DNA of 64,000 nt from a virus: positions 1 through 64,000 of IMG/VR virus record IMGVR_UViG_3300032287_003731. One strand, given 5' to 3'. The translations under genes were made by a program, and so were the position numbers. This document shows, in pieces, positions 3,277 to 24,482 of this stretch. How positions within the stretch are numbered: the first letter of the stretch is position 1; the number at the start of each line of letters is the position of its first letter. Under the pieces are notes generated by a model. It searched no databases. It was not told the origin of the DNA and saw only the letters and a list, made by a program, of their open reading frames with translations.

Positions 3277-3285
3277 TGTTTTGCC
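3277..3285 (-). promoter_or_regulatory. Candidate early/middle motif GGCAAAACA upstream of clamp
   Basis: Coding-strand GGCAAAACA begins at the last base of the upstream polymerase stop codon and ends about 19 bases before the clamp ATG. Similar motifs precede the polymerase N-fragment, gp32 and HTH genes. Confidence 0.4.
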
Positions 3286-4178
3286 TAAACAAACTTAAAG
3301 AATTTATTTACTTTATCATTCAAACTAGGAAATGACCAACCTAAGTCTTTATAAATACTTTTTAATTTATTTAATAATGTTGATTCGAATCCTTCATCTC
3401 TATCAGCAAACTTATCAATTAGTTCAACAATAAAATCCGGATCATTGCCTGTAAATCCAATTACATCAATTTCATATGGATTTGTTTTAAGTTGAATATA
3501 TTTCATCTTATCACCCGCTGTAAATAATGGATATTGTTTATGTACTTTTTTAAATTTAAGTAAGTCGTTGTAATATATAGCGGCTTTAGTATTAATAGGA
3601 CATTTTGATTTTAATGTTGAGAATATTTCACCAGCTTTAGGAGCACGTTCAACGTATGATTCAATTTGTTTTACTCCTGTAGGTTTAGCTATTTCTTCAA
3701 TAGGCATTGTTTTAACATATTTTTTAAAATCGATTATTTTTTGATCTATTTCTATTTTAGGTTTACCAAACATAATATCTTTAAGTAATCCCTCACCAAA
3801 TTCAGAATATAGAGGTGTCATATTTGATTTCATCAAATCAAGACCCATCATTATCATTTCATCAGCAGTAACACCTTCTTTATTTACAATGTACATTGCA
3901 TAACGACGTTTACCTGCGAAATAACCTCTTTCAATAACTACTTCTTGTTTTAATTCAAAGTAATGGTCTCTATCTTTAATATTAAATGCTTTCTTAGCAA
4001 ATGTACTTATATATTCGTTTGCTACACCCTGCAATTCTGAGGCTATTTCCAAGATAAGGGGCATAACTTTGTTCTTATCATTTAGATCTAAGTCTGGGTA
4101 GCGATGAAGTAGGAGATCTTTAACATGAATAAATAACGAGTCAGTATCGCTAGTTATGATTCTATCTTTATTTTCCAT
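3285..4178 (-). CDS. Family B DNA polymerase, C-terminal fragment (motif C and thumb)
   Basis: C-terminal half of a T4 gp43-like replicative polymerase. It begins MENKDRIITSDTDSLFI: the DTDS at residues 11-14 is motif C, which carries catalytic aspartates of the palm. Further on, GYFAGKRRYAMYI (about 85-97) matches the conserved KKRYA element at the start of the thumb. The missing N-terminal half is encoded upstream at 5189-6916, separated by a GIY-YIG gene and a 99-aa reading frame. Neither half is a complete enzyme, so they probably associate, as described for split gp43 of some T4-like Aeromonas phages. The start at 4178 overlaps the 99-aa gene by 11 bases. No frameshift is visible inside. 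Confidence 0.92.
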   Translation of the reverse strand: MENKDRIITSDTDSLFIHVKDLLLHRYPDLDLNDKNKVMPLILEIASELQGVANEYISTFAKKAFNIKDRDHYFELKQEVVIERGYFAGKRRYAMYIVNKEGVTADEMIMMGLDLMKSNMTPLYSEFGEGLLKDIMFGKPKIEIDQKIIDFKKYVKTMPIEEIAKPTGVKQIESYVERAPKAGEIFSTLKSKCPINTKAAIYYNDLLKFKKVHKQYPLFTAGDKMKYIQLKTNPYEIDVIGFTGNDPDFIVELIDKFADRDEGFESTLLNKLKSIYKDLGWSFPSLNDKVNKFFKFV

Positions 4179-5188: not shown

Positions 5189-6916
5189 CTACATAGTCTT
5201 TTTCTTATTTCCACATCCTTTAGGGGTATTATTTATTTCATTATTAATATAATCATTCATATTTTTAATACTTTCCTGCAATAATCGTTGACCAGTTAAT
5301 GTAATAGCTTTAGATATCATTTTATGGCCGTCAGTATAACGCCAGCCATTAATTGCATAACAGCCATATACGTCATTTAACTTAATTTTATATGCGTGTT
5401 GTCTATGATTATAAAACTCACCTTTAACAGTATCACCTGATTTGTATGCTTTTTTCATTAAGTTTTTATATTCAACTCGCTTATTAAACCAATCAGTTAG
5501 TACTTCACATACTACTGATGATTTATCAGTTCTAAACATAGCACCAGATGCTGCTATCATCCATTTATTATCTTCAATTAAACCAATTAATACCCCTACT
5601 TTTACTTGTGCTTGTTGAGTTGTACGCTTTTCATTCAATCGCTCAATAGTGATTATTTGTTCAGGATCCATTCGTTTTAGATCATTTAATGTCCAATTAT
5701 TATCGTATTTATTTTTGTTTATAATACGACCAACAAACGTTTCAATACCTATATTAAGCGAACGAATAATAGATGGATATAGTGATGTGAAATCTAAATC
5801 AATAACCCACTCATATAATCCAGGTATTGGATCTTTTAAATAACCACCTGCGTATTCTTCTTCAAGCTGTTTAAGTGCAGGATTAGTAGTTGTAGGTTTA
5901 TTAGGTGAAACTATACCTTGACGTTTTAGGTAAGTCAATATAGCGCCGTCGTTTAGTACAGTTGATAAATAGATCATTTCATAAGGCACATGACATAGAT
6001 GACAAATTGCAACCGTTAGTTCAATGAATTTAAATTTCTTTTCTAATTCAATAATAATTTCTACGTCACGTAAGTTGTATTCAACGTATTTATTTACATC
6101 TTCTTTGAACAATCTATCTAAACTGCCTTCATAATCTACTTTACCTAAATTAACATATTTTACTCCTATATCGTTTAGTTTATATGATGGTTCTTGCTTC
6201 ATAACATACTTCTTATGAAGTAACATATAATCTAAATGATTAATACCTGCTATTTCAATTGGTTGAGATGTATCCCACTCAGTAAATTTAAACTTACGGA
6301 TTGGGGATAAACGAGCTGCTTCATCAGCTCCTAATACATTATTTAGTCTATAATATAGATAAGGAACGTCAAAGAAACCACTATTCCATCCTGTAATAAT
6401 AGTCGGATCTACTGTTTTCCATAATTCAAGAAATAATAATAGTAATTCTTCTTCATTAGCACAAGGTACTACTTGTTTATTTTCTTCATTTATAGATTGT
6501 AATTGATTTTTTTCATCTAATATTAAGCAATAATATTTTTTACCTGTAGCATCATACAATGAAATTGAAGTTATTTTCATTGGTGCTGATTTAATATATT
6601 CAGTAGTTAGAGCACCACCAATTTCACACTCAATATCAAAGTAAATTATATTATGCCACTCAGGAGTATCATCACTATCTTTATATTTATCAATTAATAT
6701 AGCAGTAAGTCGATCGATATCTGCTTCATATAAATGATTATCAGTCCATTTATATTTAGTAGTTAATTTAGCTCGCTTACCATCTAGTGTTTGGTATTGA
6801 CCATTATCGTCTATTTGAAAGCGAGGTACTGTATATTGAAATTCAGTCCATCCTTGATTATCATCACGTAGATGATAACTATACGATTTATTGTCGTAGA
6901 ATATTGCTTGATACAT
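5189..6916 (-). CDS. Family B DNA polymerase, N-terminal fragment (exonuclease, motifs A and B)
   Basis: N-terminal 575 aa of a T4 gp43-like polymerase. The 3'-5' exonuclease motifs are visible: IIYFDIECE (Exo I, about residue 90), ITGWNSGFFDVPYLYYR (Exo II) and YNLRDVEII (Exo III). Palm motif A is LDFTSLYPSII and motif B is KIKLNDVYGCYAINGWRY. The frame then stops after a short basic tail (GCGNKKKTM) before the catalytic DTDS, which starts the separate protein at 3285-4178. The tail resembles the first residues of the C-fragment (ENKDR), consistent with disruption of one gene. A candidate early motif lies at 6936-6944. Confidence 0.95.
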   Translation of the reverse strand: MYQAIFYDNKSYSYHLRDDNQGWTEFQYTVPRFQIDDNGQYQTLDGKRAKLTTKYKWTDNHLYEADIDRLTAILIDKYKDSDDTPEWHNIIYFDIECEIGGALTTEYIKSAPMKITSISLYDATGKKYYCLILDEKNQLQSINEENKQVVPCANEEELLLLFLELWKTVDPTIITGWNSGFFDVPYLYYRLNNVLGADEAARLSPIRKFKFTEWDTSQPIEIAGINHLDYMLLHKKYVMKQEPSYKLNDIGVKYVNLGKVDYEGSLDRLFKEDVNKYVEYNLRDVEIIIELEKKFKFIELTVAICHLCHVPYEMIYLSTVLNDGAILTYLKRQGIVSPNKPTTTNPALKQLEEEYAGGYLKDPIPGLYEWVIDLDFTSLYPSIIRSLNIGIETFVGRIINKNKYDNNWTLNDLKRMDPEQIITIERLNEKRTTQQAQVKVGVLIGLIEDNKWMIAASGAMFRTDKSSVVCEVLTDWFNKRVEYKNLMKKAYKSGDTVKGEFYNHRQHAYKIKLNDVYGCYAINGWRYTDGHKMISKAITLTGQRLLQESIKNMNDYINNEINNTPKGCGNKKKTM

Positions 6917-7776: not shown

Positions 7777-8960
7777 AGTATTATATCTTTTCTATTTATC
7801 CATTCTCCATCTTTATTTACAGGCCAGTAAACCCACTTATATGGTTTAGTAAATGATTTAAAATGTATCTGTAAGTTTGGAGTATATTCTGTTAAATCAA
7901 ACCTATATATTACTTCTTCTTTTTCATTTTCAACACCAATATAAATAAAGTTAAAATCTTCTGTTGGTGGAATACTTAAAGTTAAATTATATTCTTCTTC
8001 TACTATTAAGTCCCAATCAGAATCATCATTAATAGGTGGATTAATTCCTTTTAATGTACTTGGATGTAATCTTTTATTTTTAAAATTAATACCAGCATAT
8101 AATTCATAATCGCGGTGAGTACGTACTGTACCTAAACCGTATTCATCTAAATCAATATTATTATCTTCTTCTTGTAACATATGACGTAAACGGCGTTTAC
8201 TATCATTATCTATTTCCCACCATGGTTTTTCTACATTATTAGCTGGGGTAAAATCATCCCAATGTTTAGTTCTACCTTCACGAGTATACTCATGCCATAT
8301 TATTGTTTTATGGGGATGAAATAAATCATATCCTAATGTATATGATCTAATTGATAAACTAATTTCATCACCAGCAAAATAAATATTAGGATCGTATTTA
8401 TATTCTTCACAGTGAATACCTAGTGTAAAGAAAAAATGACCACTAACAAATCTAGCAGGAATAGGAGCAGTTAATGTTTCCCAATCAGGTATAGTATGAG
8501 GTCTAAATAATATAGTGCCACCTGATGTAAAGTTAGAGGCAACCATTTTATATGGCTCTATATTCAATAATTCATTATTGAGAGGACGATACATTCCTGC
8601 ATACGAAGTAATAATAGGTTTAGGTGAATTAGTTAATTGCATCATTTCAATTAACTCTTCATCCCAATCTTGTAAGAAACGATGATGTGAATCTAATTGT
8701 AAAGTATATTTTTCACCTTTCCATAATTTTTGAATTAAACTTCTAGCCCAACATAATCCTTTACTTTCACTCCAATGTTTATCTATTATAGTAAAACGAG
8801 AATCACTAGCAAATTCAGCTAGCGATTCTGTTTCACTTCGTTGCCAACAAATACCAAATGTAAGACGCTCAGGGTATTTAGCTTTAGCTATACAATCTCT
8901 AATTGTAGGAATCAATTCAGGATCTCTATAACTAGCTATCTGAACGAATATTTTATCCAT
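7773..8960 (-). CDS. GlcNAc-transferase family glycosyltransferase (PF11397-like)
   Basis: Glycosyltransferase related to the family that includes the Skp1 hydroxyproline GlcNAc-transferase. Starting at the ATG at 8960, the protein begins MDKIFVQIASYRDPEL, followed by LTFGICWQ and then LCWARSLIQKLWKGE and LQLDSHHRF, the conserved core whose DSH replaces DxD. A second conserved block, FAGDEISLSIRSYTLGYDLF, holds a likely catalytic/acceptor region. The C-terminal ~100 residues look like an added beta domain. Upstream ATGs at 8975 and 8993 are possible starts; 8960 gives an 8-base overlap with the preceding gene. The family call is good; donor and acceptor are unknown. Confidence 0.85.
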   Translation of the reverse strand: MDKIFVQIASYRDPELIPTIRDCIAKAKYPERLTFGICWQRSETESLAEFASDSRFTIIDKHWSESKGLCWARSLIQKLWKGEKYTLQLDSHHRFLQDWDEELIEMMQLTNSPKPIITSYAGMYRPLNNELLNIEPYKMVASNFTSGGTILFRPHTIPDWETLTAPIPARFVSGHFFFTLGIHCEEYKYDPNIYFAGDEISLSIRSYTLGYDLFHPHKTIIWHEYTREGRTKHWDDFTPANNVEKPWWEIDNDSKRRLRHMLQEEDNNIDLDEYGLGTVRTHRDYELYAGINFKNKRLHPSTLKGINPPINDDSDWDLIVEEEYNLTLSIPPTEDFNFIYIGVENEKEEVIYRFDLTEYTPNLQIHFKSFTKPYKWVYWPVNKDGEWINRKDIIL

Positions 8961-9920: not shown

Positions 9921-10649
9921 TTAGCAATAAGCTTGAAGATTTAATTTAAGCATTTCAAGTACTTCTTGTTTAGCTGTTTTATTATGATCAGCAAACACAC
10001 CGCTTATTTCACTTGTAACCATACTAGCACCCCAATGTTTTACACCCCTACAGGATACGCAATTGTGTGTGCTATGTACTATTACCATTACTCCTATGTT
10101 ACCTTCACAAATATTATTTATAGCGTTATGAATAGCTACAGTAAGTTGTTCTTGAATAGCTCCTCTACGTGCAAAATGTTCTACTACTCTATTTAGTTTA
10201 GATAGTCCAACTACTTTACCATCTTTACCTGGGATATAGGCAATGTGTGCTTTTCCTAAAATGGCTTGATGATGATGGGAGCACATAGACACAATAGGGA
10301 TATCACGTTCTAAAACAATACCTGTATATCCATCACTAGGAAAAGCAGTAATATCTGATGGTAATTCATATCTACCCTTCCATAGATCAAATACATAAGC
10401 TTTAGCCACACGATGAGGAGTTTCCATACTGTTTGGATCATTTTTCCAATCAACACCCAATGCTGTAAGAAAATTACCATAAGCTATTTCAGCTTCATCT
10501 ACAATTTTCCATTTTTCATCATCAGTAAGTGAACGATGATAACCATCCTCAATAAGAGAAGCCAAATAAGTTGAAATACCATTTGCAAAACCAGGTTGTG
10601 CTGTTTCTAATGCCTCAACATTAGCAATTTTTCTACGTTTATTCTCCAT
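9921..10649 (-). CDS. folE: GTP cyclohydrolase I
   Basis: Converts GTP to 7,8-dihydroneopterin triphosphate, the first step toward preQ0 (and folate). The 242-aa protein has the family's zinc ligands: SMCSHHH around residue 123 (Cys123, His126) and THNCVSCRGV around residue 197. The conserved GLSKLNRVVEHFARR lies at 148-162. With QueD, QueE and QueC nearby it completes the GTP-to-preQ0 pathway, which in phages usually feeds 7-deazaguanine DNA modification. The start at 10649 overlaps the preceding small gene by 11 bases. Confidence 0.97.
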   Translation of the reverse strand: MENKRRKIANVEALETAQPGFANGISTYLASLIEDGYHRSLTDDEKWKIVDEAEIAYGNFLTALGVDWKNDPNSMETPHRVAKAYVFDLWKGRYELPSDITAFPSDGYTGIVLERDIPIVSMCSHHHQAILGKAHIAYIPGKDGKVVGLSKLNRVVEHFARRGAIQEQLTVAIHNAINNICEGNIGVMVIVHSTHNCVSCRGVKHWGASMVTSEISGVFADHNKTAKQEVLEMLKLNLQAYC

Positions 10650-10806
10650 ATTCTTCTTTATACATTATTTTAAAATAACATTTTTCACATAATTGACCTG
10701 CACCTTCGACATAATAATTTCTTTTATCTATATGATCCGATTTAAGATAAGTAGTATCTTCATCGCAGATCATACAATACTCTTTTTCATCGATTAGTTT
10801 TTTCAT
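10639..10806 (-). CDS. Small CxxC...CxxC zinc-ribbon-like protein
   Basis: A 55-aa protein from the ATG at 10806 (an upstream start at 10827 would add seven residues). It has two Cys pairs, CMIC near residue 11 and CEKC near residue 41, likely binding one zinc. Its stop overlaps the folE start. Function is unknown; it could be a small regulatory or nucleic-acid-binding protein. Confidence 0.65.
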   Translation of the reverse strand: MKKLIDEKEYCMICDEDTTYLKSDHIDKRNYYVEGAGQLCEKCYFKIMYKEEYGE

Positions 10807-10906
10807 TTTTATCGTTTTTATCAGCAAACCAAACAGCTATTTTTAATAAAAATAAAGGAAAAGCTGCTATTATTATTAAACCTGCTGTTAGATATACTAT
10901 TTTCAA
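10787..10906 (-). CDS. Possible 39-aa single-pass membrane peptide
   Basis: A TTG start at 10906 gives a 39-residue frame. It contains one strongly hydrophobic stretch (IVYLTAGLIIIAAFPLFLL) followed by a charged tail (FADKNDKNEKTNR), typical of tiny phage membrane peptides. It fills the gap between the thioesterase stop and the zinc-ribbon start and overlaps the latter by 20 bases. The non-ATG start and small size keep confidence low. Confidence 0.4.
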   Translation of the reverse strand: MKIVYLTAGLIIIAAFPLFLLKIAVWFADKNDKNEKTNR

Positions 10907-10908
10907 TG

Positions 10909-11268
10909 TTATTTCTTTTTATTATGTGCTATTGGTTTTCCATTTTCATCTAACAATACAAATACAATTTTTTCAACTTTAATAATAGTTTGTTTAGTAT
11001 CTTTATTTCGTACTTCGCATACAATAGTAATAGATGTTGTACCTACAGACACTAAATCACATCCTATTTCAATAATATCACCTATCTTAGCTGAAGATAC
11101 GAAATTAATTTCGCTCATTGCCTTAGTAACTATATTTGTTTTATTTAGTTGGCAAATAGCAAATATAACTGCTTCTTCGTCTATCCATTTTAAAACTTGT
11201 CCACCAAATAAAGTACCTCTAGCATTTAAATCGCTCGGTTTAATTAGTTTTCTAGTTCTAAATTTCAT
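10909..11268 (-). CDS. Hotdog-fold acyl-CoA thioesterase (YciA-like)
   Basis: Predicted to hydrolyse acyl-CoA thioesters. The 119-aa protein has the family's active-site region SDLNARGTLFGGQVLKWIDE at residues 12-31, where Asn and the following Gly-rich helix start are conserved, followed by a long beta sheet. Single hotdog domains of this size usually form hexamers or dimers of dimers. It lies between queE and folE, joined to queE by a TAATG junction, so it is co-expressed with deazaguanine genes. A thioesterase is not a known step of that pathway. It may alter host lipid metabolism or act on an unknown modification. Confidence 0.88.
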   Translation of the reverse strand: MKFRTRKLIKPSDLNARGTLFGGQVLKWIDEEAVIFAICQLNKTNIVTKAMSEINFVSSAKIGDIIEIGCDLVSVGTTSITIVCEVRNKDTKQTIIKVEKIVFVLLDENGKPIAHNKKK

Positions 11269-12140
11269 TATACATTTAGTGTTTTATCCCAAGCTGAAAT
11301 ATGTAAACGAGTTAAACCACGGAATTTGTATTTTTTAGCCATTTCTAATACAAATTGAGTACGCTCATGGAAATTATCTTGACTATCTAATCCTGGCATA
11401 CAAACCACTTTGGAAAGCGGTATACTAAATTCATCAACAAAGTCACGTAGTAGTTCATTAACATCTTCTTCATTTGATATAACAAATTTAAACTGATAGC
11501 ATCTATGTTCCATTATACGCTTTATAGCGTCGGGTACTATACGTTGTTTAGCTGGTAAGCCTGAATTAGATAGTTTAGGTGAGCAGTTGATTTGGTCTAA
11601 TTGAATCCAAAGCGGATGGTCAATATAAACGGTACCATTTGTTTCTATTTCACTAAACGCTGTGATTTTATCTGTTTGTACTAAACCACCTGAATATATT
11701 ACATTAATAGATGGGTCTATAGATTTCCAATACCAAATAAAATTTCTAATTGCTTCCTGATGTTCTTTAATTGTAGGTTCACCACCAGTCCAAATAATAT
11801 GAATAGTACCATTCTTAATATCATCGTAGATACCTTGTTCTTTCCAACGATCAATTAGATATTGAAAATCTTTATCTTCACCCCTCCATAGCCACTGACT
11901 TGTAGAATCACAAGTCCAAGTTGCTTTACCTTCTGCTTGTAAATCACCTACGAATATTTCTCCATCTTCTAAATTCTGCTCTTTAGCTAATTGATTAGCG
12001 AATACTCTACTCATACCGCAAGTTAGGTTACAAACACCTAAACGAACAAAGTATGATGGTACTCCGCTACTTATACCTTCGCCTTGTACACTATAGAAGT
12101 CTGAACTTATAAGTAATTTATTTAGATTGATCTTGCTCAT
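11268..12140 (-). CDS. queE: 7-carboxy-7-deazaguanine synthase (radical SAM)
   Basis: Radical SAM enzyme that turns 6-carboxytetrahydropterin into 7-carboxy-7-deazaguanine. The N-terminus FYSVQGEGISSGVPSYFVRL is the QueE substrate/SAM region. The [4Fe-4S] cysteines appear as C37, C41 and, after a 35-residue insert, C77 in TWTCDST; in most QueE proteins the third Cys follows the second after two residues. IIWTGGEPTIKEHQ, the family's GGEP motif, follows at about 114. The protein is 290 aa, longer than bacterial QueE (~220 aa), partly because of this insert. It is followed by the thioesterase and folE. Identity is firm; the effect of the insert is not known. Confidence 0.93.
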   Translation of the reverse strand: MSKINLNKLLISSDFYSVQGEGISSGVPSYFVRLGVCNLTCGMSRVFANQLAKEQNLEDGEIFVGDLQAEGKATWTCDSTSQWLWRGEDKDFQYLIDRWKEQGIYDDIKNGTIHIIWTGGEPTIKEHQEAIRNFIWYWKSIDPSINVIYSGGLVQTDKITAFSEIETNGTVYIDHPLWIQLDQINCSPKLSNSGLPAKQRIVPDAIKRIMEHRCYQFKFVISNEEDVNELLRDFVDEFSIPLSKVVCMPGLDSQDNFHERTQFVLEMAKKYKFRGLTRLHISAWDKTLNV

Positions 12141-12339
12141 TAATATATGATTTATATTTTTCTTTATCTATTACTATCATTTTAGTAGGAGCAGGTGCAC
12201 CAGTAAAGGGACAGTAATTAATTTGAGTTGCATACTCTTCATTATGTGCCCACATTTTTCCTTCTTTATCTATTTCTATGTGAGTTATTGCTTGACCCCA
12301 CATTTTATTAGGCGCTCTATATTCTAAATTCTGCTGCAT
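12118..12339 (-). CDS. Hypothetical 73-aa protein with CPFTGAPAP motif
   Basis: Not recognised. It contains one Cys in YCPFTGAPAP (about residue 43), similar to half of a zinc ribbon, and is otherwise mixed alpha/beta. It overlaps the queE start by 23 bases and follows a 40-aa gene by two bases, so it is part of the deazaguanine operon. No function can be assigned. Confidence 0.75.
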   Translation of the reverse strand: MQQNLEYRAPNKMWGQAITHIEIDKEGKMWAHNEEYATQINYCPFTGAPAPTKMIVIDKEKYKSYINEQDQSK

Positions 12340-12341
12340 GG

Positions 12342-12464
12342 TTATTTCTTAGTATATTTTATATAATTAAATATAAAATTTAAATTTGGCCATTCCAAAA
12401 TTCCTAAAATACTAATGTGATGTTCACCGCATAAACCTAACGTGTGTTCAATTAAATGTATCAT
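12342..12464 (-). CDS. 40-aa small protein with LCGEHH motif
   Basis: An ATG at 12464 opens a 40-residue frame, MIHLIEHTLGLCGEHHISIL, continuing to a hydrophobic end (LNFIFNYIKYTKK). The compact LCGEHH cluster could bind a metal. It starts just after the terminator of the HTH gene and ends two bases before the next ATG, so it neatly fills an otherwise empty gap. Function is unknown. Confidence 0.6.
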   Translation of the reverse strand: MIHLIEHTLGLCGEHHISILGILEWPNLNFIFNYIKYTKK

Positions 12465-12471
12465 ATTGATA

Positions 12472-12507
12472 AAATAAAAAACATCCCCACCAATTAAGGT
12501 GAGGATG
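12472..12507 (-). terminator. Intrinsic terminator after the HTH gene
   Basis: On the coding strand CATCCTCACC pairs with GGTGGGGATG (one G-T pair) around TTAATT, followed by TTTTTTATTTT. This is a clear rho-independent terminator for the gene at 12521-12748. It separates the regulator from the queE-side genes. Confidence 0.88.
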
Positions 12508-12520
12508 TTGAGGACGTGAA

Positions 12521-12748
12521 TTAAACAAACTCACTGTTTTCTACACGACGACGAGATACTTTATACATCTCATTTGCCATTACTTGAGGAACGGAACGAC
12601 GACCTGCTACTACGTTACATACATGAGACTCCGAATATCCAGTACCGTCAGCAATACGTGTCAAATCTCCTTTACGTTGACGAGCCTTGAAAAAATTAAG
12701 TTTTTCAATACTGTTCAATCTTGTATTTTTTGTTTGTTGTTTACTCAT
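12521..12748 (-). CDS. Small helix-turn-helix DNA-binding regulator
   Basis: A 75-aa basic protein with a Cro/C1-type helix-turn-helix: LTRIADGTGYSESHVCNVV at about residues 29-47 gives the two helices and turn, followed by GRRSVPQVM and a basic tail. It probably binds phage or host promoters. It has its own candidate early motif (12789-12797) and a strong terminator, so it is transcribed as a unit within the deazaguanine cluster. Target genes are unknown. Confidence 0.85.
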   Translation of the reverse strand: MSKQQTKNTRLNSIEKLNFFKARQRKGDLTRIADGTGYSESHVCNVVAGRRSVPQVMANEMYKVSRRRVENSEFV

Positions 12749-12787
12749 AACTAAAGTTTAAATTTTTATATATTTGAAGTTAAAATT

Positions 12788-13657
12788 TTATTTTGCCCTC
12801 TCCAAAACTTTCTCTACATGTGCTTTAGCTACTTCCCAAGACACAGGACCACTTAAATCAGCATAATTTACAGGATCAGGACGACCAAGTTTAATAAATG
12901 CTTCAATACGTTCTACTGATGATGCTGATTTATAGTCTGAGTACCATTTCCCGTCTATAATATTTCTATTATTACCTCCATCACCGTCAATCCATATTGG
13001 TTTATAACTTGTATTAGTTCTACTGTATACCTCGTTAAAATCAAGATTAAGTTTTTCACAGCACTCTAATCCATCTTGTAATATACCGAACTTATCAGTA
13101 TGTAAATAAGGTGTATAAATATTTACTAAGTCAGAATCCCAATTACCAATTCTAAATGCTTCCATATCGGCATCTCTAAACTCTTGACGGCAGTCAGGAT
13201 AAATAGCATGATCACCTGCATGAATTCCAAGTGCAATATTTACTCCTTGTCTTACATCGCAATCATCATCTACGGGTTTAGTAGCAAGTGATAATGCTAC
13301 TGCCTGGATAAGTGAACTGAAGATTTTATTGCGATTAGGAACAACAGTTTCTTTCATATTTTCTTGCTCATAATGTCCTTCAGGGACATCATCTCCACCT
13401 TCAACTAATGCTGAGTTAAGTAGTTGTTGTAATCCATCTAGTTTAATAATTTGATGTCTTAATGGGAAATAATAGTCATTATTCCAATTAGTGTTTAGAT
13501 ATCTAATTAATGATGCAGCACGTTCAAGTTCAACACGATGTTTTTGTCCATAATCAAAAGATAAAGCTGTAACTTCATAGCCATTGGCGAGTAGATGAAG
13601 CAGCAATGTAGAGCTATCCATACCTCCACTTAAAGATAATACTGCTTGTTTTTTCAT
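12788..13657 (-). CDS. queC: 7-cyano-7-deazaguanine (preQ0) synthase, zinc cysteines absent
   Basis: Uses ATP and ammonia to convert 7-carboxy-7-deazaguanine to preQ0. The PP-loop SGGMDSS is at residues 10-16, and VPNRNKIFSSL (about 108-118), ALGIHAGDHAIYPDCR (about 146-161) and YLHTDKF further on are QueC hallmarks. Bacterial QueC then has a C-terminal cluster of four Cys binding zinc. Here that region (residues about 207-255) has none: the usual WSCY site reads NTSYKPIW, and the CxxC region is replaced by GKWYSDYKSASSVER. The rest of the C-terminus aligns well (RIEAFIKLGRPDPV). The gene's start overlaps the DpdA-like gene by four bases. Confidence 0.95.
   Translation of the reverse strand: MKKQAVLSLSGGMDSSTLLLHLLANGYEVTALSFDYGQKHRVELERAASLIRYLNTNWNNDYYFPLRHQIIKLDGLQQLLNSALVEGGDDVPEGHYEQENMKETVVPNRNKIFSSLIQAVALSLATKPVDDDCDVRQGVNIALGIHAGDHAIYPDCRQEFRDADMEAFRIGNWDSDLVNIYTPYLHTDKFGILQDGLECCEKLNLDFNEVYSRTNTSYKPIWIDGDGGNNRNIIDGKWYSDYKSASSVERIEAFIKLGRPDPVNYADLSGPVSWEVAKAHVEKVLERAK
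12789..12797 (-). promoter_or_regulatory. Candidate early/middle motif GGCAAAATA upstream of HTH gene
   Basis: Coding-strand GGCAAAATA about 40 bases before the HTH ATG. It coincides with the last codons of queC (R-A-K-stop), so this copy could be chance. Confidence 0.3.
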
Positions 13658-14454
13658 TTTATATAACTTTTAAATTTTTGTATGTTAAATTTAATATCTT
13701 CAAGTTGCCCACTCAAGTCTTTATCAAAAAATTCTTCTATTTTTTCTTTAGGTTTATCTTTAAGACCATTGTCTTTATATCTTATTCCTAAAGCACCATT
13801 AATTATAGGACTAGAAGTATCTATTGATTTTAAACAATCATATTTAAATATATCATTACTTTTATATAACATTATTTCTTGAGGTAATGAACATCCTAAT
13901 AAATGATGATAATAAGATTGATTCATTGTATTAGTTTCTAATAACTTATTTATTAGATAATGTCTACCTACCATTTGTTTATCTAATGTAGATATATTAG
14001 CTCCTATTGTTTGATAAGCAGCAGATGAATGATTAAAAGCTATATGTTTATATCCTAAATCAACTAATATTTGATATGTAGTTAATAATTCACCAAAATT
14101 ATTTCCTTGAAGTACAGCCATTAACGCTGTTTTTTCAGGTAAATATTTTTTATAATTTACAACCCAATGTTTAGCATTACGAAGAGTAATTGATGAATCA
14201 TTCCAAGCATCAGGTACAATGAATATATCTGGTTGTAGCCATTCAATTTTAGATAATAAATCTTCTGTTGTATGTGTTATTCCTTCAAATAACCCATTGT
14301 CCATAATAATAAAACGTTTATCTAAATATGCTTTTTGAAAGAATAATTTATAATATTCTGATTTATCTAATAAATGGGGTAAACAATATTCATAATCATT
14401 CCATTCATAACTATAATCCATCAATGAAGGTGGAAGTTCATGTGAAACTTTCAT
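13654..14454 (-). CDS. DpdA/TGT-like transglycosylase (7-deazaguanine base exchange)
   Basis: Likely member of the tRNA-guanine transglycosylase-like TIM barrels, which in phages (DpdA) exchange guanine in DNA for a 7-deazaguanine. Supporting segments of the 266-aa protein: MDNGLFEG (51-58), PDIFIVPD (75-82), MAVLQG (112-117), HHLLGCSLPQE (183-193) and SIDTSSP (210-216), an order of beta-strand ends with Asp/Gln/Gly like that of TGT barrels. It is smaller than tRNA TGT (~375 aa) and lacks the C-terminal zinc site, as phage DpdA-type proteins can. It lies between queD and queC with ATGA overlaps on both sides. The call rests on pattern plus context; a bare TIM-barrel hydrolase is the alternative. 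Confidence 0.72.
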   Translation of the reverse strand: MKVSHELPPSLMDYSYEWNDYEYCLPHLLDKSEYYKLFFQKAYLDKRFIIMDNGLFEGITHTTEDLLSKIEWLQPDIFIVPDAWNDSSITLRNAKHWVVNYKKYLPEKTALMAVLQGNNFGELLTTYQILVDLGYKHIAFNHSSAAYQTIGANISTLDKQMVGRHYLINKLLETNTMNQSYYHHLLGCSLPQEIMLYKSNDIFKYDCLKSIDTSSPIINGALGIRYKDNGLKDKPKEKIEEFFDKDLSGQLEDIKFNIQKFKSYIK

Positions 14455-14666
14455 AACGATATTTTCTTTTTTAATTTATCAATTTGAATTTGACAATACC
14501 ACTTACCTAACCAATTAGATGCTTTAGCATACTTTTTAGTCCATTTATTTATTTTTTTATAAGTAGACACATCTATTTTAATATCAGTTTCATCCCAGTG
14601 TCCTTCAGTATAATGTGGGTATATATGTTTTTTTCTATTCTTCATATATAGCGGTATTTTTTTCAT
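14451..14666 (-). CDS. Hypothetical basic 71-aa protein
   Basis: Lys- and Trp-rich small protein (KKINKWTKKYAKASNWLGKW), possibly nucleic-acid-binding, with no recognised domain. A second ATG at 14645 would shorten it by seven residues and reduce the overlap with queD from 32 to 11 bases. Its stop overlaps the DpdA-like start by four bases, so it is translationally coupled to the modification genes. Confidence 0.7.
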   Translation of the reverse strand: MKKIPLYMKNRKKHIYPHYTEGHWDETDIKIDVSTYKKINKWTKKYAKASNWLGKWYCQIQIDKLKKKISL

Positions 14667-15099
14667 GTTCTCTTACTTCCACTTGTTTTATCTTAACTCT
14701 TCCATTAGAATCACTTATAACCCATGGATTAAGTTTATTATAAATATACTCAGCAAACTTCTCACACCCAACAGCGGGAATTATCCTTAATTGAATAATA
14801 CCTAATTGATCCATTGTTTTAAATCCACCAATTCCAGGATCATCTTCTGCTATAATTGTAGTATGATCAAACATATAATCCATCCACTCTTTAGGACTTA
14901 ATCCATCTATTTTGTATTGTGATCGCTTAGCATGTCCAAAATCCCAAACCCAATTACGCTCATCTAATTCACCTTCAAACCATACTCTAAATGATATCCC
15001 ATAACCATGTAAAAAACGACAATGTGTTCCTTCTGCTTTCCATTGACGGAATACACAACTAAAACCGTCAAACAATTTTGTTGATATAAATTTACTCAT
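14635..15099 (-). CDS. queD: 6-carboxytetrahydropterin synthase
   Basis: Second step of preQ0 synthesis: converts dihydroneopterin triphosphate to 6-carboxytetrahydropterin. The 154-aa protein has HCRFLHGYG around residues 27-35 (zinc His and nearby Cys), DFGHAK, MFDHTT (about 75-80, catalytic Asp-His), VGCEKFAEYIY and the C-terminal VEVREHEKNTAIYEE, where the EHEKNTA pattern is diagnostic. It heads the deazaguanine gene group in transcription order. Confidence 0.95.
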   Translation of the reverse strand: MSKFISTKLFDGFSCVFRQWKAEGTHCRFLHGYGISFRVWFEGELDERNWVWDFGHAKRSQYKIDGLSPKEWMDYMFDHTTIIAEDDPGIGGFKTMDQLGIIQLRIIPAVGCEKFAEYIYNKLNPWVISDSNGRVKIKQVEVREHEKNTAIYEE

Positions 15100-18006: not shown

Positions 18007-19377
18007 TTATTGTTCAAGCTTAAAAAATTTCTTTTGGAGTATTTGTCTTTCTTCAACATCAACATCCGAAAAATTATTTACTGTTTTACTATTTGTTTCT
18101 ATTTCATCATCGTCAATTGGATTATCATCTACTTCAATAAAACCGTTTGAAGTATTAATTTTAGATTTAAAAGTTAAACCATCAGCACCATATCTATTTT
18201 TCATAATATGCCATTTACCAGTACCTTCAACTTTATCTTTACGTTTACGTGCTAAAGATAAAATAATATCACCAATCATTATTTTTTCATATGAACCTGC
18301 TGCATTATCACCTTCAATAATATCAGATTTTGCTGCTCCTCTATTTGCTTGTGAAGGTGATACAATAGGAATACCTTTTTCCTTAGCAAATGATTTAGCT
18401 GCTATATAAACATCATCGATTTCTTCTTTACGATCTTTTCTTGAACGTGTACGCATGTAATCAAGATAATCAATAATGATTAAGTCTGGTTTGAAGTTAT
18501 TTTGGTGTTCAAGTTGTTGAAGATGTGATTCAATGGTATCGAATGATGCTCTTTTAGGTGGGTATTCTTTAATAATTACTTTACCCTTTACTTTACCTAC
18601 TATTTCATCTACTTCTTTACGATGTAAATGTAATTTATCTACTTCAATACTAGAAAATACAGCATCGTATCTTTTACCTATATATCCTTCACCTAATTCA
18701 AGTGAATAATGTACTACATTAAATCCTAAAGCAGCAGCATATGCACCCATTGCTGTTACAGCCCATGATTTACCGCCGCCTGGATTGCCAAATACAAGTA
18801 CTAAATCACCTTTACCATAACCACCTTGTGTTAAATCATTAAATGTAGCCCAAGGAAATGGAATTGTGTTTCTATCATCTTCACGGTATCTAGCTTCAAT
18901 ATCTAAATTATAATCTAGGCCTACTGTTTTATCTTCACCTGCTTTAACTGCTTTACTAATTAATTGAAATATACTATCAAAATCGTTTATTTCAAGTAAA
19001 CTAACTGAATTTAAAATTGCTTTTTTTACTTGTTGGTTACGGCAGAAGGTACTAAATTCAGTTTCAACCCATTCTAAATCACTCTGATCTGATAATTTAT
19101 AAGCTTCTCTAAGTGTCTCTGTTATTGATATTTTTAATACTTCATTATCAATTTTCTTTACTTCAATAGACATTGTTTCTACTGTAGGTGTAGTGTGGTA
19201 TTCACTAAAATATTTTTGAATATATTCTATAACCCACTTATGAGCACTTGATTCGAAATAATCAGAATCAAGCGAATCAATAATATTAAGTAGAAATTGT
19301 CGTTGTGTAAGTAGAGCTCCTAATACTTTTAATTGAAATACAGCACCATACGTTGATAATTTTTGAAGAGTTGTCAT
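18007..19377 (-). CDS. Replicative DNA helicase (DnaB / T4 gp41 family)
   Basis: Hexameric 5'-3' helicase that unwinds DNA at the fork. The 456-aa protein has an N-terminal helical domain (residues 1-150), then the RecA-like motor: Walker A FGNPGGGKS at about 196-204, Walker B DLIIIDYLDYM, a downstream SQANRGA motif with the glutamine sensor and a KNRYG element with the arginine finger region. The C-terminal acidic tail may contact primase or other proteins. It is co-directional with the 5' nuclease, uvsX and gp32. No primase is seen in this window. Confidence 0.93.
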   Translation of the reverse strand: MTTLQKLSTYGAVFQLKVLGALLTQRQFLLNIIDSLDSDYFESSAHKWVIEYIQKYFSEYHTTPTVETMSIEVKKIDNEVLKISITETLREAYKLSDQSDLEWVETEFSTFCRNQQVKKAILNSVSLLEINDFDSIFQLISKAVKAGEDKTVGLDYNLDIEARYREDDRNTIPFPWATFNDLTQGGYGKGDLVLVFGNPGGGKSWAVTAMGAYAAALGFNVVHYSLELGEGYIGKRYDAVFSSIEVDKLHLHRKEVDEIVGKVKGKVIIKEYPPKRASFDTIESHLQQLEHQNNFKPDLIIIDYLDYMRTRSRKDRKEEIDDVYIAAKSFAKEKGIPIVSPSQANRGAAKSDIIEGDNAAGSYEKIMIGDIILSLARKRKDKVEGTGKWHIMKNRYGADGLTFKSKINTSNGFIEVDDNPIDDDEIETNSKTVNNFSDVDVEERQILQKKFFKLEQ

Positions 19378-19395: not shown

Positions 19396-20421
19396 TTATT
19401 TAAAAGAATTTAGATAACCAAACAGTTGTAAGATCCATGACTGTACATTAGGAATACTTTCTCCTAACTTGTCATTATGATACATTTGAACAAATATAGG
19501 TATATTTAACTCATAAGAACTATTAAAAGCGTCTTTCACTAGCTGTTTATTCTCTGGTGATAAGAAACTTCCATCCAAAGACATTAGTTTTTCATTAATT
19601 AATAATTGCTGTCTTCTTTCTATAACAGACAAATATAGCTTATTTTCATTAATTGATTCAGCTGATTTTTTTATTATATTCTCTAGAGTAATTCTATGAT
19701 CATTTATTAGCTCTGGAAATAATTTAATAAGCTTTTTTGGCCCAATACCATCTATCCCAGGTATATTATCTGATTGATCTCCTAATAGTATTTTATAATT
19801 AATAAAATTAGTACTGCTAACATTATATTCTTCTAGTACATCTTTTGGAGTATATATTTTCTTTTTAGTTGGAGAATAAACGTGTGTTTTATCACTTACT
19901 AATTGAAGAAAATCTTTATCAGCAGACATAATAGTTACTCTTTGAGTTTCTTCATAATCGGCAAATCGTGAAGATAAATAACCAATAATATCGTCTGCTT
20001 CTAAACTATCAATACCGATAATAGTAACTGGTAGACATTTTAAGTATTGGATTAAACGTTCCATTTGATTATTAATACTCTCTGTTTCTTCTTCTTTAGA
20101 AGTAAATATAGAGTAGTTAGTCATGCGATTAGCATTTCTATTTGCTTTATACTCAGGGAATAAATTTCGTCTTGCGTTTGAACTTCCAACACCATCAAAT
20201 ACAATAACTACTTTAGTTGGATCACATACACGAATAGCATAACCTACTGATTTTAGAAATCCTGTGAGGGCACCAATATGGTGCCCGTCAGGATTTATGT
20301 GGTTAATCATAGTAAAGTTTCTCAAAAACGTATTGAATGCGTCTACTATTAGAATTGAATTGAATTCTTTTCGTATATCTGGTTGTATGTTGGATAAGAG
20401 TTCATGATATTTTTTACTCAT
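19396..20421 (-). CDS. 5'-3' exonuclease / flap nuclease (T4 RNase H-like)
   Basis: Removes RNA primers and flaps from lagging-strand DNA. The 341-aa protein shows the metal-binding acidic series of the FEN family: ILIVDAFN near the start, VVIVFDG, DSLEADDIIGYL, VTIMSADKDFLQLV, and the helix-hairpin-helix region DQSDNIPGIDGIGPKKLIKL. Length and order match T4 RNase H (305 aa) and bacterial Pol I 5' nuclease domains. It lies 4 bases after uvsX and 19 before the helicase gene, in a compact replication operon. Confidence 0.93.
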   Translation of the reverse strand: MSKKYHELLSNIQPDIRKEFNSILIVDAFNTFLRNFTMINHINPDGHHIGALTGFLKSVGYAIRVCDPTKVVIVFDGVGSSNARRNLFPEYKANRNANRMTNYSIFTSKEEETESINNQMERLIQYLKCLPVTIIGIDSLEADDIIGYLSSRFADYEETQRVTIMSADKDFLQLVSDKTHVYSPTKKKIYTPKDVLEEYNVSSTNFINYKILLGDQSDNIPGIDGIGPKKLIKLFPELINDHRITLENIIKKSAESINENKLYLSVIERRQQLLINEKLMSLDGSFLSPENKQLVKDAFNSSYELNIPIFVQMYHNDKLGESIPNVQSWILQLFGYLNSFK

Positions 20422-20424
20422 ATT

Positions 20425-21531
20425 TTAGTTTACTTCATCATTATCTATTTCCACAATAGGTGATATTTTACTACTCTCTTCCCATTCGCTATTATCTTCT
20501 GTAATTTGGATTTCATCTATATTAATATTAGTTCCAAACCATTCCGATGCATGAGCTGCTTTATATGCTTTTTCTTCATCTTTATCGTCAGGAATAAATC
20601 CATGTGGTGTTACAATTACAGTAGATGTAGTTGCTACTCCACAGTCAGCATGAATCTTATCAATTGCTATTTTAGTACGTTTAGCAAACTCAACTTTTTT
20701 ACCCTTATGTTGAGCGTGAATCTTACTTGTACCACTATTAGTTACATTACCAAATGTAATTACAATTGATGCATCCCAATACATTGCATTACCACCCTTA
20801 TTTGTCATACGAGGTTGAGACATAGGAGTTAATGCTGGTTGAACACCTGTTTTATTAATAATAAAGAATGTATTAGTATAAGCTGATGTTTCTTTACGTG
20901 ATAATGGAAATTGCTGATTAATAAAGTTACCGAATTGAGTAGCCATAGCTCCAGCGTTCCACATTGGATTGTTATTGCCTTGTTTAACACTCATTTCACA
21001 TGGAATTGATCCTACCGAGTCCCAAAGGAACAATAAATCATAAGGTAGTTTTCCTTTCTTTTGTTCATCGAGTATATCAGCAATAAATGCAGCTACGTCT
21101 TCAATAGTATTAAGTGATGCTCTATCCACGTATAAGAAGAAACCTTTATAATTCATTATTTCACCTGTTTCTTCATCAGGTATAGATTCAAGCTGTAATC
21201 CCATTGTTTGAGCGTGAGCAAAGTCCCATTTCATCTCAGTGATGATAAAGATGGGCAATACACCCATCTTTTGAGCAGCAACTGCTACTTCTATCATCAA
21301 AGTAGTTTTACCCGTATCTGAACCACCTCTAGCAATAGAAACATGACCCATAGGAATCCCAGGAATTGAAAGTGCTTCTTTCACTGCTGAAGAGAATGGA
21401 ATCCATTTTTGTTTTTTAAACTTAGAGGATTGATCTAGAAACTTAGATTTTTTAAATGCGTCAATGTCAAATGACTTTTTAAGTGATTCTGACACTATTG
21501 ATGTTAAGGTATTATCTTTTGTTCGTGCCAT
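20425..21531 (-). CDS. uvsX: RecA-like recombinase UvsX
   Basis: Forms filaments on single-stranded DNA and drives strand invasion, which in T4-like phages also starts replication. The 368-aa protein has Walker A ARGGSDTGKTTLM (about 67-79), Walker B LLFLWDSVGSIP, and an extended acidic C-terminus (DNSEWEESSKISP) like T4 UvsX. It follows gp32 by two bases, its known partner in filament loading. The RecA core is certain; UvsX is preferred over bacterial RecA because of the length, the T4 context and the acidic tail. Confidence 0.93.
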   Translation of the reverse strand: MARTKDNTLTSIVSESLKKSFDIDAFKKSKFLDQSSKFKKQKWIPFSSAVKEALSIPGIPMGHVSIARGGSDTGKTTLMIEVAVAAQKMGVLPIFIITEMKWDFAHAQTMGLQLESIPDEETGEIMNYKGFFLYVDRASLNTIEDVAAFIADILDEQKKGKLPYDLLFLWDSVGSIPCEMSVKQGNNNPMWNAGAMATQFGNFINQQFPLSRKETSAYTNTFFIINKTGVQPALTPMSQPRMTNKGGNAMYWDASIVITFGNVTNSGTSKIHAQHKGKKVEFAKRTKIAIDKIHADCGVATTSTVIVTPHGFIPDDKDEEKAYKAAHASEWFGTNINIDEIQITEDNSEWEESSKISPIVEIDNDEVN

Positions 21532-21533: not shown

Positions 21534-22367
21534 TTAATCATTGAAAAGGTCATTAAATTTATCTGCATTGCTTGTTTTAGCTTTGGTTTCTAAAGAATAA
21601 GCAGGTGCTACGGGCTTATTCATTTCAGTTAAGAAATCATCTTCTTCTGTTACAGCAGCTGTAGTAGTTGCAGTAGTTGCAGTAGCTGTTTCTTCTGCTT
21701 CAGGATTCAACCACTTAGCCAATACATCTTTCAATTGATCGTAATCATATTTACGATTAATTCCGAGAATATCGGGTTGTTCATTAAGCACTTTTTCTAC
21801 TAATACTGCATCTTCAGAAATAGGAGATGTTTTTGGTTTAACTCTCAATGCACATTTAATACCTTTTCTACCAGCAACTATATCTTCAGTTGCTTCGATT
21901 GTAAAATCACGACCGTCTGTAATGTCGGTAAAATCACCATAATCATCATCGGCAGCAATACCAACGAGTTGATCATTAGTTAACTTACCAAATTCCCACA
22001 AACGAGCACCCAAATGCTCTTCACCACGTACTACTACAGCAGCAAAATAACGAGATTTAGGTTCAACTTTTTTAGCTAATTGCCAATCTTCCTTATCGGA
22101 TGATTTACGCAATTGTTTTGCAAAATCAACAATAGGATCAGCTTCACCCCAATTAGTAAGTGCTACAATTGGTCCTTTAGTAAAACCATAATGGAATCGT
22201 ACTTCACGAATAGGCCATGTTTTGTCGTACTTGTTAGGTAAAATACGCACTTGGTACTTACCTGGTTTTGGTTTGAAGAAAATTTTACTGTAATCAACTT
22301 TTTCGTACTTCTGTTGCCCTTTATTTTGAGCAGCGGCTAACTTCTGCTTTGCAAGATTAATGTCCAT
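21534..22367 (-). CDS. Single-stranded DNA-binding protein (T4 gp32-like)
   Basis: Coats single-stranded DNA during replication and recombination. The 277-aa protein follows the gp32 plan: a basic N-terminus (LAKQKLAAAQNKGQQKYEKV) for cooperativity, an OB-fold core containing KPGKYQVRILPN and IREVRFHYGF, and a Thr/Ala-rich linker leading to a C-terminal acidic tail (TEEDDFLTEM, FNDLFND) that would contact other replication proteins. Unlike T4 gp32 it has only one Cys in the whole chain, so the zinc site is absent. A candidate early motif lies at 22402-22410. It is co-transcribed with uvsX. Confidence 0.9.
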   Translation of the reverse strand: MDINLAKQKLAAAQNKGQQKYEKVDYSKIFFKPKPGKYQVRILPNKYDKTWPIREVRFHYGFTKGPIVALTNWGEADPIVDFAKQLRKSSDKEDWQLAKKVEPKSRYFAAVVVRGEEHLGARLWEFGKLTNDQLVGIAADDDYGDFTDITDGRDFTIEATEDIVAGRKGIKCALRVKPKTSPISEDAVLVEKVLNEQPDILGINRKYDYDQLKDVLAKWLNPEAEETATATTATTTAAVTEEDDFLTEMNKPVAPAYSLETKAKTSNADKFNDLFND

Positions 22368-22419: not shown

Positions 22420-22761
22420 TTAAGATATGATCAAGGTAAAGTTCCCTGCTCCTCTTAAATAATAGGTCGAACCTGTAACTGCAACTGCTGGCGTAAATGT
22501 AAGTGATGATGTGCCTGGAGAGATAACAGCAGAAGCTATATGAGATGATGAAACAAATCCTATAGATGATGACACAACCCATGTTCCTACTGCGTTAGTT
22601 TTAGAACCACTATTGTAAAATCCATCAGCATTTCTTATAGTCTCTAAAGTAAAATAACCAGTTGAAGCATCAGCATTATAAAACGTAAATGTTTTTAATC
22701 CTGATAAATTTTCTCCGATTGAACCGGAGCCATATAATTGATTTGATGTATATGTAGCCAT
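22420..22761 (-). CDS. Small Ser/Thr-rich beta protein, probably virion-associated
   Basis: A 113-aa protein rich in Ser, Thr, Gly and Ala with alternating hydrophobics (FTFYNADASTGYFTLETI; GSTYYLRGAGNFTLIIS), as in small decoration or tail-tip proteins. There are no Cys and no charged clusters. It lies between the gp32 gene and a hypothetical gene, with a TAATG junction to the latter. Virion function is inferred from composition only. Confidence 0.7.
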   Translation of the reverse strand: MATYTSNQLYGSGSIGENLSGLKTFTFYNADASTGYFTLETIRNADGFYNSGSKTNAVGTWVVSSSIGFVSSSHIASAVISPGTSSLTFTPAVAVTGSTYYLRGAGNFTLIIS

Positions 22762-23180
22762 TATTTTGCTAAGTCTATAATTTTATAAATAGCTGTGTCT
22801 AAGCGACGTAATTCAGGACCATTATTCAATAATATACAATTTCTATAATCTAACCAATTAACTATATAATTTTTATCTAGCCTTCCTTCATTAAGTTGTC
22901 TAATCAATGTGTTTAAAGCATTGATAGTGTAAAGTGTATTTGATTCTTTTTTACGATGTACTAAAATAGTATTTGGTAATGGAGTATCAATAACATTGCC
23001 TGTATCTATATTATAAGTACATACTAACTCGTTACTTTGAGGCGATTCAAGTATAAATATTTTATTATATAATATAGAATATCGGCGGTTTATATTACCG
23101 ATAGTAGATTCTAATTCATCAGGCAAAGTAAAAGTACAAAAAAGTTTATTCAATTGATCAAACAAATTATATTCCGTCAT
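22761..23180 (-). CDS. Hypothetical 139-aa protein
   Basis: Not recognised. It has mixed alpha/beta pattern with a conserved-looking block NTILVHRKKESNTLYTINAL around residues 70-89, followed by LNEGRLDKNYIVNWLDYRN. No catalytic or metal motif is visible. It lies 6 bases after the PolA-like gene and its stop overlaps the next gene's start by one base, so it is in the same transcript. Confidence 0.75.
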   Translation of the reverse strand: MTEYNLFDQLNKLFCTFTLPDELESTIGNINRRYSILYNKIFILESPQSNELVCTYNIDTGNVIDTPLPNTILVHRKKESNTLYTINALNTLIRQLNEGRLDKNYIVNWLDYRNCILLNNGPELRRLDTAIYKIIDLAK

Positions 23181-23186: not shown

Positions 23187-24482
23187 TTAGATTTTAGTTA
23201 AGCCATGATATGTTTTACCTTGTTTAATGTTTACTGGGTATTTTATCATATTTATTATTTCTTGAATTAAATTAATATCTTCTTTATTGTAATCAAATAA
23301 AAAGGCATCATATGTGTATAATACTAATTTTGTTTTTTTATCTTTTAAATAATCTAAAATTAATTCAAGTAATTGAACATTAGTTGATGTTTCATAACTT
23401 TGAATTACATAATTAAATAATTTATTAATAGTCATTGTTTTATCATGTGTAAATATTTTATTTTTAGTTTCGTAATAACCACCGTATTGGTATGTATCCC
23501 ATAAATCATCAATATATTTTATTACGTCTTTAAAGAATGGTTTATTACGATATTCACTCCAAACACCACCATATAATTGCTTAAACGTTAATTCTTTAGC
23601 TTCCTGCTGTGATACATTGAGTAATTCACCTAGGTAATCATATGTGTTTCTATCTTTAGGAAATTCAAAACCAACTAATTCACCTATTAATCGTGGATGA
23701 TAACCCTGAATGTCTATTTCTATAAATGAATCATTATTTGGTCTATAACATAAACGTTCTCCGTTTGTTTTATTTAACGCTGCAAAATTAATAGTATTGT
23801 ATGTGTTAGATGGACGAGACGTAGTAGTATTTAAATTATAAGAAGAATATATTCTTCCTTTAAATAGACTAAACTCGGGATATTTTAAATCATCACCGTA
23901 ACAATCAATAAAGCAGTTTTTATCTACTTTTATACCGTTTTTTTCTATATTATAAAATACGTTTACTGTATTAAAGTTTTGAAATTGAAATTGTGTGTTA
24001 CTGGGGGTGTATTTTTGTATTATAGGTAGTATTGCTTGAAATATTTTTTCACACTCTTCATAGTGTTTACTGATTGGTATTAAACAATTAATATTAGATA
24101 AATTAATATTATTTCTATAATAATGATTAATACAGTTATTACCAGATATTTCAGTTAAATCAATAGATTCGAGTAACTGAGTATCATACAATTTATTAGC
24201 TAGTGGATATACCCAATGTAATGCTTCTTTTTTATCTAATACCCATAGTTTACCTGTGTTATTAGATAACCAATCAATAATTTCAGTTTGAGATATACTA
24301 AATGATTCATTGTGATCTAAACACAAAATGTATCCTTTCTTTCCATTAAGCGGTCTAACATATATTAGACTTAGCGACGTAAGTGACGGATGATAATTAT
24401 CGTTTTTAGAAATAAATCTAACAAAGCAATCGTTAAACGATTGAGAAAACAATTGATCCGAACGTTCGACAATATAAAACAT
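23187..24482 (-). CDS. Divergent family A DNA polymerase-like protein
   Basis: The 431-aa protein carries a reduced Pol I-type polymerase core. TSRPSNTYNTINFAALN (221-237) matches the RxSSxxPNxQN block; FIEIDIQGYHPRLIGELVGF (253-272) is motif A with Asp257; AKELTFKQLYGG (295-306) is motif B with Lys and YG; VLYTYDAFLFD (387-397) is motif C with Asp392, where the usual HDE reads YDA. The N-terminal part has weak remnants of an exonuclease-like domain (WVLDKKEALHW, LYDTQLLESID). At 431 aa it is much shorter than Pol I (~900) or T7 polymerase (704). It could be a repair or primer-extension polymerase, or a non-catalytic relic. It is the second DNA polymerase in the window. Confidence 0.72.
   Translation of the reverse strand: MFYIVERSDQLFSQSFNDCFVRFISKNDNYHPSLTSLSLIYVRPLNGKKGYILCLDHNESFSISQTEIIDWLSNNTGKLWVLDKKEALHWVYPLANKLYDTQLLESIDLTEISGNNCINHYYRNNINLSNINCLIPISKHYEECEKIFQAILPIIQKYTPSNTQFQFQNFNTVNVFYNIEKNGIKVDKNCFIDCYGDDLKYPEFSLFKGRIYSSYNLNTTTSRPSNTYNTINFAALNKTNGERLCYRPNNDSFIEIDIQGYHPRLIGELVGFEFPKDRNTYDYLGELLNVSQQEAKELTFKQLYGGVWSEYRNKPFFKDVIKYIDDLWDTYQYGGYYETKNKIFTHDKTMTINKLFNYVIQSYETSTNVQLLELILDYLKDKKTKLVLYTYDAFLFDYNKEDINLIQEIINMIKYPVNIKQGKTYHGLTKI

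Follow-up and report, generated by a model that had tools for sequence, protein, structure and literature searches.

Genes at the locus

The DNA analysed here (the window) comprises 64,000 nucleotides, positions 1 to 64,000 of IMG/VR virus record IMGVR_UViG_3300032287_003731. Its minus strand carries a gene for a 431-aa protein, assigned below to the divPolA1 family of phage polymerases, followed downstream on the same strand by a 139-aa protein, a 113-aa ORF, a single-strand DNA-binding protein (SSB), a UvsX-like recombinase, a FEN-type nuclease and a DnaB-like helicase. These genes and the two parts of the regular polymerase of this phage are located as follows.

23187..24482, minus strand: divPolA1, 431 aa, ATG start; predicted thumbless, exonuclease-dead family A DNA polymerase
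22761..23180, minus strand: 139-aa protein, constant divPolA1 neighbour and candidate partner subunit; model pLDDT 88, no significant fold match
22420..22761, minus strand: 113-aa ORF between the 139-aa neighbour and SSB
21534..22367, minus strand: gp32-like single-strand DNA-binding protein (SSB); phrog_1192, E 7.4e-16
20425..21531, minus strand: UvsX-like recombinase; phrog_97, E 2.9e-16
19396..20421, minus strand: FEN-type 5'-3' exonuclease; phrog_107, E 1.4e-39
18007..19377, minus strand: DnaB-like replicative helicase; phrog_19, E 2e-74
5189..6916, minus strand: regular family B DNA polymerase, N-terminal part; phrog_262 positions 80-569, E 9.9e-108
3285..4178, minus strand: same family B polymerase, C-terminal part, separate ORF; phrog_262 positions 569-852, E 3.4e-44

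The 139-aa gene starts 6 bases past divPolA1, and the two small ORFs (139 and 113 aa) separate divPolA1 from the downstream SSB and UvsX. The plus strand of 23187-24482 contains many stops. Relatives at 62-100% identity to the window protein were retrieved, and 11 divPolA1 pairs gave dN/dS values of 0.07-0.23 by a Nei-Gojobori-type count, with dS above 1 and near saturation in 8 of the 11. These values indicate purifying selection, and the reading frame is therefore not a chance ORF.

Assignment to family A DNA polymerases

The window protein looks unfamiliar because single-sequence searches of Pfam and PHROGs return no match; against Pfam DNA_pol_A (PF00476) the protein alone gave none at E up to 10, and a search of PDB sequences returned unrelated proteins only (best E 0.0095). 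PF00476 is matched at E up to 0.01 by 35 of 68 family members, and a profile of 68 divPolA1 representatives aligns with a profile of six reference PolAs with 98.5% probability (E 1.6e-15). The palm part by itself matches eight reference PolAs at E 2.6e-16, while the first 200 residues by themselves yield no significant match to the same set (probability 4%). With the 68-row profile, a PDB search also reaches the Klenow sequences of E. coli (E 4.3e-4), and the divPolA1 copy of the uncultured phage LR756508 matches Staphylococcus phage polymerases over its C-terminal half (best E 9e-6).

The AlphaFold2 model (mean pLDDT 94.0, pTM 0.91) displays the Pol I fold. Family A DNA polymerases account for all 50 PDB matches listed by Foldseek, named rows among the matches in a viral structure library are largely PolA or DNA polymerase, and the 50 rows listed by VIA-align comprise DNA polymerases only. 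The top match of VIA-align 2 is the large fragment of Bst Pol I (Z 26.2, rmsd 4.2, 402 of 431 residues), in which model residues 1-429 are aligned with 300-876. This alignment places the N-terminal part, undetectable by sequence, in the position of the exonuclease domain. The initial annotation, which had proposed a reduced second family A polymerase beside gp32 and UvsX, is thus borne out by both the profile comparison and the fold. Profiles and model together identify the product of 23187-24482, with confidence, as a predicted family A DNA polymerase reduced to palm, fingers and a remnant of the exonuclease domain.

Relation to divPolA1 and distribution of the family

The 2024 study of divPolA1 is reportedly the work of Yutin and colleagues. 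According to the available passages of that paper (Virol J 2024, 21:200; PMC11348598), divPolA1 occurs in 14 phages of 155-190 kb including Flavobacterium phage immuto, and is characterized by a truncated thumb and an inactivated exonuclease; these phages encode a regular polymerase besides, from family A, B or C, and the replication genes around divPolA1 are conserved. divPolA1 was inferred there to keep polymerase activity and to join in replication. Every one of these features is found in the window protein, which is therefore a further member of the known family. With divPolA1 of the immuto group, annotated as DNA polymerase family A, it shares homology (35.1% identity over 97% of the query, E 4e-58), the short thumb, the dead exonuclease, the palm residues, the second polymerase and the downstream genes. 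The record of the window has 96,953 bases, and the published genomes are given as 155-190 kb in the passages available. In the literature searched, the name divPolA1 appears only in this paper and its preprint (PMC11188092), and no biochemistry of the family was found.

Beside the 2024 description as far as its text was available, the present analysis adds an invariant histidine at the steric-gate position, the scale of the family, its Mel-JY01 and LR756508 branches, and an exclusive link with the 139-aa neighbour. The available text passages of PMC11348598 mention neither the histidine nor the neighbour, although the 139-aa gene may well be displayed among the neighbourhoods of its Fig. 4b. 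The same passages describe divPolA2 of barbaviruses, likewise an extra PolA-like protein beside a regular PolB that has neither a normal thumb nor an active exonuclease. The N-terminal domain of divPolA2 is unrelated and its neighbourhood varies (PMC11348598, passages available), whereas the N-terminal part of the window protein aligns with the exonuclease region of Pol I and its neighbourhood is fixed.

When 50,697 phage records were searched by tblastn, divPolA1 was identified in six, namely four immuto records, Microcystis phage Mel-JY01 and LR756508. The family was enlarged to 256 distinct complete proteins, the outer members of which share only 29-37% identity with the window protein; clustering of 334 complete ORFs at 85% identity, with repeats counted, gave 135 representatives. 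At least 590 sequences in IMG/VR encode a relative (590 of the 600 pattern matches listed), and a scan with the LR756508 protein brought no further relatives. We also note divPolA1 at 36-67% identity on seven contigs of metagenome-assembled bacterial bins (L334, JAIOYD010000025.1, and L335-L340), one of them filed as Rickettsiaceae, which are presumably binned phage contigs.

Loss of the thumb and of the exonuclease motifs

The first description of the protein, as lacking much of a normal Pol A, can now be specified: there is no thumb, and the exonuclease motifs are lost. By hand count on the profile alignment, G183, the conserved glycine after the exonuclease part, and T221, the threonine of the TGR motif, are separated by 38 positions, compared with 122 between G544 and T666 of E. 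coli Pol I, and the thumb shortfall relative to Bst and Klenow amounts to ~84 residues. The model contains a single helix of four or more residues between G183 and T221, which is 8 residues long. The missing segment is the thumb. Only 17 residues lie between the same two columns in all 18 representatives of the Mel-JY01 group, and also in 14 of the other 117.

Alignment columns 18-33 contain no acidic DxE pair that is conserved. In the second exonuclease region K85 is invariant, and D100, which we take to be a structural aspartate, is present in 131 of 135. The catalytic aspartates of the 3'-5' exonuclease appear to have been replaced, a call made from alignment columns and not from a superposed structure.

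Active site

The palm and fingers retain the residues named initially, Asp257 of motif A, Lys296 and Tyr304-Gly305 of motif B, and Asp392 of motif C, which align with D705, K758, Y766, G767 and D882 of E. coli Pol I. R223, F300 and Q361 likewise align with R668, F762 and Q849, and all eight positions are invariant in the 135 representatives. The invariant site and the dN/dS values of 0.07-0.23 together indicate that selection maintains divPolA1 as an enzyme whose active site is a particular one, and that the protein is not decaying.

Other positions are changed. The position of E. coli E710 is occupied by histidine (His262 in the window protein) and that of H881 by tyrosine, each in 135/135 representatives, and arginine is found at the R754 position in one of 135, with three gaps; none of E710, R754 and H881 is changed in the eight reference PolAs, a set that includes three regular PolAs of divPolA1 phages. 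At the E883 position alanine is present in 105 representatives and serine in 30, and the H734 equivalent is position 281 of the window protein. Motif C of the window protein reads Y391-D392-A393, the YDA noted before, compared with HD in 8/8 reference PolAs. The tyrosine is the unusual part of this motif, since the third residue is alanine in Gordonia phage Nibbles as well, and serine in both Twort and HMO-2011. Klenow and Bst Pol I share fold and residue order with the window protein and differ from it in their thumb and exonuclease motifs and in the four positions E710, R754, H881 and E883, which are changed in the window protein.

The steric-gate position of T7 RNA polymerase is glycine, and His262 of divPolA1 differs from this residue as well as from the glutamate of DNA polymerases. 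In E. coli Pol I, Glu710 is the steric gate and Phe762 its assistant, according to the passages available of PMC13228545. Judged from the aligned residues, the replacement of E710 by His and of H881 by Tyr, together with the loss of R754, could fit the active site to a different substrate.

Gene neighbourhood and the 139-aa protein

The 139-aa neighbour lies downstream of divPolA1 in all 198 distinct cases with enough flank; 2.5 kb of downstream flank was available for 198 of the 256 distinct proteins, and flanks that were too short were excluded. Among distinct cases with enough flank, SSB is found downstream in 154 of 155 and FEN in 76/76, a UvsX-like recombinase was detected in 92 of 117, and the helicase tally consists of one usable case. 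The UvsX profile was built from relatives of the window, and LR756508 carries a RecA-like ORF, recognized by eye, at the UvsX place despite the profile miss; at least this miss looks like divergence, while others may be real absence. A homologue of the 113-aa ORF is present at the same place in locus L003 and not in L005 or L007 (by eye). Between partner and SSB, L007 contains, alongside other ORFs, a 259-aa ORF (7978-8757) with leucine-rich-like repeats, again by eye.

Loci fetched with divPolA1 hold divPolA1 by construction, and a set fetched with the partner (tblastn, best 80 loci per scan) is less circular, with some contigs in both. In this reverse test divPolA1 lies upstream of 78/78 distinct neighbour proteins (102/102 ORFs) at loci with 2.5 kb upstream. 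Contigs fetched repeatedly are included in the tallies of 312/312, 299/299 and 102/102, and counts of distinct proteins exclude such repeats. Among 48 partner-fetched loci with just 300-2500 bases upstream, 30 contain a piece of divPolA1 and 18 contain none at the threshold used; we read these 18 as cases of too short a flank. In the collection of 50,697 phage records the partner matches the same six records as divPolA1; in immuto the two proteins are KNV73_gp001 (divPolA1) and KNV73_gp002 (neighbour).

The 139-aa protein has no match among PDB sequences at E up to 1. Its PHROG matches are stray, occurring in 4 among 49 members (best E 0.0012), the window copy giving nothing better than E 0.039. 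Searches with its model (pLDDT 88) returned no Foldseek match under E 0.17 and VIA-align Z values of at most 6.5 over ~61 residues, which is under the stated noise level of the tool. As the fold matches are all weak, they exclude no fold family, and these searches brought to light no recognisable relative outside divPolA1 phages. As a subunit for holding or loading divPolA1, the neighbour is the foremost candidate.

In phage T7, the DNA polymerase makes use of host thioredoxin at the thumb. By eye, a thioredoxin-like ORF follows the DnaB helicase in two loci, directly in L003 (12392-12691) and after one further ORF in L005 (12754-13026); set against the T7 precedent, divPolA1 itself is without a thumb.

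Proposed function and alternative readings

The reading that we prefer, and to which we give even chances, is that divPolA1 works as an accessory polymerase, active but exo-minus and of low processivity, which serves to fill short gaps or to extend primers. The enzyme would be catalytically active and, without thumb or proofreading, would add short stretches only, filling gaps or extending primers on gp32-coated DNA, for example where the FEN nuclease and UvsX have opened Okazaki junctions or recombination intermediates. Bulk synthesis would be left to the regular polymerase (PolB in this phage), and FEN and divPolA1 could together correspond to bacterial Pol I, with nuclease and polymerase divided between two proteins. 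Low processivity would require helpers, for which the 139-aa neighbour is a candidate.

ASFV DNA polymerase X belongs to family X, with a fold unrelated to that of Pol I. According to the passages available of PMC5330486, it fills gaps although both the thumb and the 8-kDa domain are lacking, and it may thus serve as a precedent, from another family, for thumb-free viral gap filling. Both are thumbless viral polymerases, and the comparison is a working analogy only. More generally, a thumbless family A polymerase asks how little of the polymerase hand suffices. Environmental phage contigs commonly carry the family, and its unchanged active site and one constant neighbour make its function open to direct testing in cultured phages of Flavobacterium.

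A role in repair or recombination, one of those offered initially, is plausible from the context, and by the order of the genes alone gap filling, D-loop extension and lesion bypass cannot be told apart. As a recombination or lesion-bypass polymerase, divPolA1 would extend the invading 3' end in D-loops made by UvsX or copy past damage, with distortion tolerated for want of thumb and proofreading. The module shared with UvsX and gp32, the lost exonuclease motifs and the absent thumb would all suit such an enzyme. UvsX is, however, the least constant member of the module (92/117, partly a limit of the profile), whereas FEN and SSB are constant, and we regard this reading as unlikely, though a serious contender.

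Rather doubtful is the idea that divPolA1 forms half of an obligate two-subunit polymerase, in which the 139-aa protein would supply the DNA grip of the thumb in trans and the steric-gate histidine would alter the selectivity for sugar or substrate. If the neighbour does replace the thumb, this would be a new way of building a polymerase; otherwise divPolA1 is a useful accessory polymerase, already named in 2024.

The other polymerases of these phages bear on the division of labour. A regular PolB is present in 10 of 20 divPolA1 records and a regular PolA in 9, one or other kind occurring in 19 of 20 and in all 15 records of at least 150 kb; none was found in the 114-kb fragment G011. PolC is matched in one of the 20 only, LR756508, the PolB matches of which are spread over more than one ORF. 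It is improbable that divPolA1 is a main replicative polymerase and the regular polymerase an accessory. Such an arrangement would account for the constancy of the replication neighbourhood of divPolA1 while the other polymerase swaps between families A and B, a point also made in the available passages of PMC11348598, and the PolB gene of the window is interrupted; against it stand the missing thumb and exonuclease motifs of divPolA1 and the regular polymerase retained in 19/20 records, including 15/15 of those of at least 150 kb.

The PolB that the initial annotation placed in the same phage is indeed there, split into 5189-6916 and 3285-4178. The halves (3285-6916, minus strand) meet at position 569 of PHROG 262, the second starting just before the DTDS motif, and enclose a 229-aa ORF (4475-5164), GIY-YIG-like by eye and without a Pfam family, and a 99-aa ORF (4168-4467). 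The split resembles a homing-endonuclease insertion or an intron; Rfam gave no intron at the split, one sub-threshold match to a snoRNA family, and no gathering-level match in the whole window. Beside PolB, a 243-aa ORF (2526-3257, minus strand) resembles a sliding clamp (gp45-like) by eye and has no match in PHROGs or Pfam.

We consider it quite improbable that divPolA1 is a family A derivative acting as RNA polymerase or primase, in which the steric-gate change would admit ribonucleotides. The position of Glu710, the gate according to the available text of PMC13228545, is His in 135/135 representatives compared with Glu in 8/8 reference PolAs, but histidine is still bulky and the equivalent of F762, the assistant of the gate in the same text, is kept in 135/135. 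The primase idea is further weakened by homologues of the annotated DnaG primase of immuto in 16 of 20 records (those of 97, 102, 126 and 133 kb lack one), so that no priming role is needed for divPolA1.

That divPolA1 is a catalytically dead remnant with a structural or regulatory role is hardly credible: the loss of thumb and exonuclease motifs and, in almost every member, of the residue equivalent to R754 would agree with it, but both catalytic aspartates and the K, F, Y and Q residues are invariant in 135/135 although outer members are only 29-37% identical. Just as little credence can be given to specialization for templates modified with 7-deazaguanine, also suggested initially: QueC occurs in 13 and QueD in 17 of 20 divPolA1 records, yet both are absent from Mel-JY01 (190,001 bases), LR756508 (484,177 bases) and the 114-kb fragment G011, all of which possess divPolA1, and in immuto it is instead the regular PolA that has most of the modification genes (QueD, QueE, GTP cyclohydrolase, DpdA and QueF) close by, in the 8 kb upstream of it, with divPolA1 ~29-36 kb away from them at the start of the record and QueC about midway.

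The window has a deazaguanine set of its own at 9921-15099 on the minus strand, consisting of GTP cyclohydrolase and QueE-, QueC- and QueD-like proteins.
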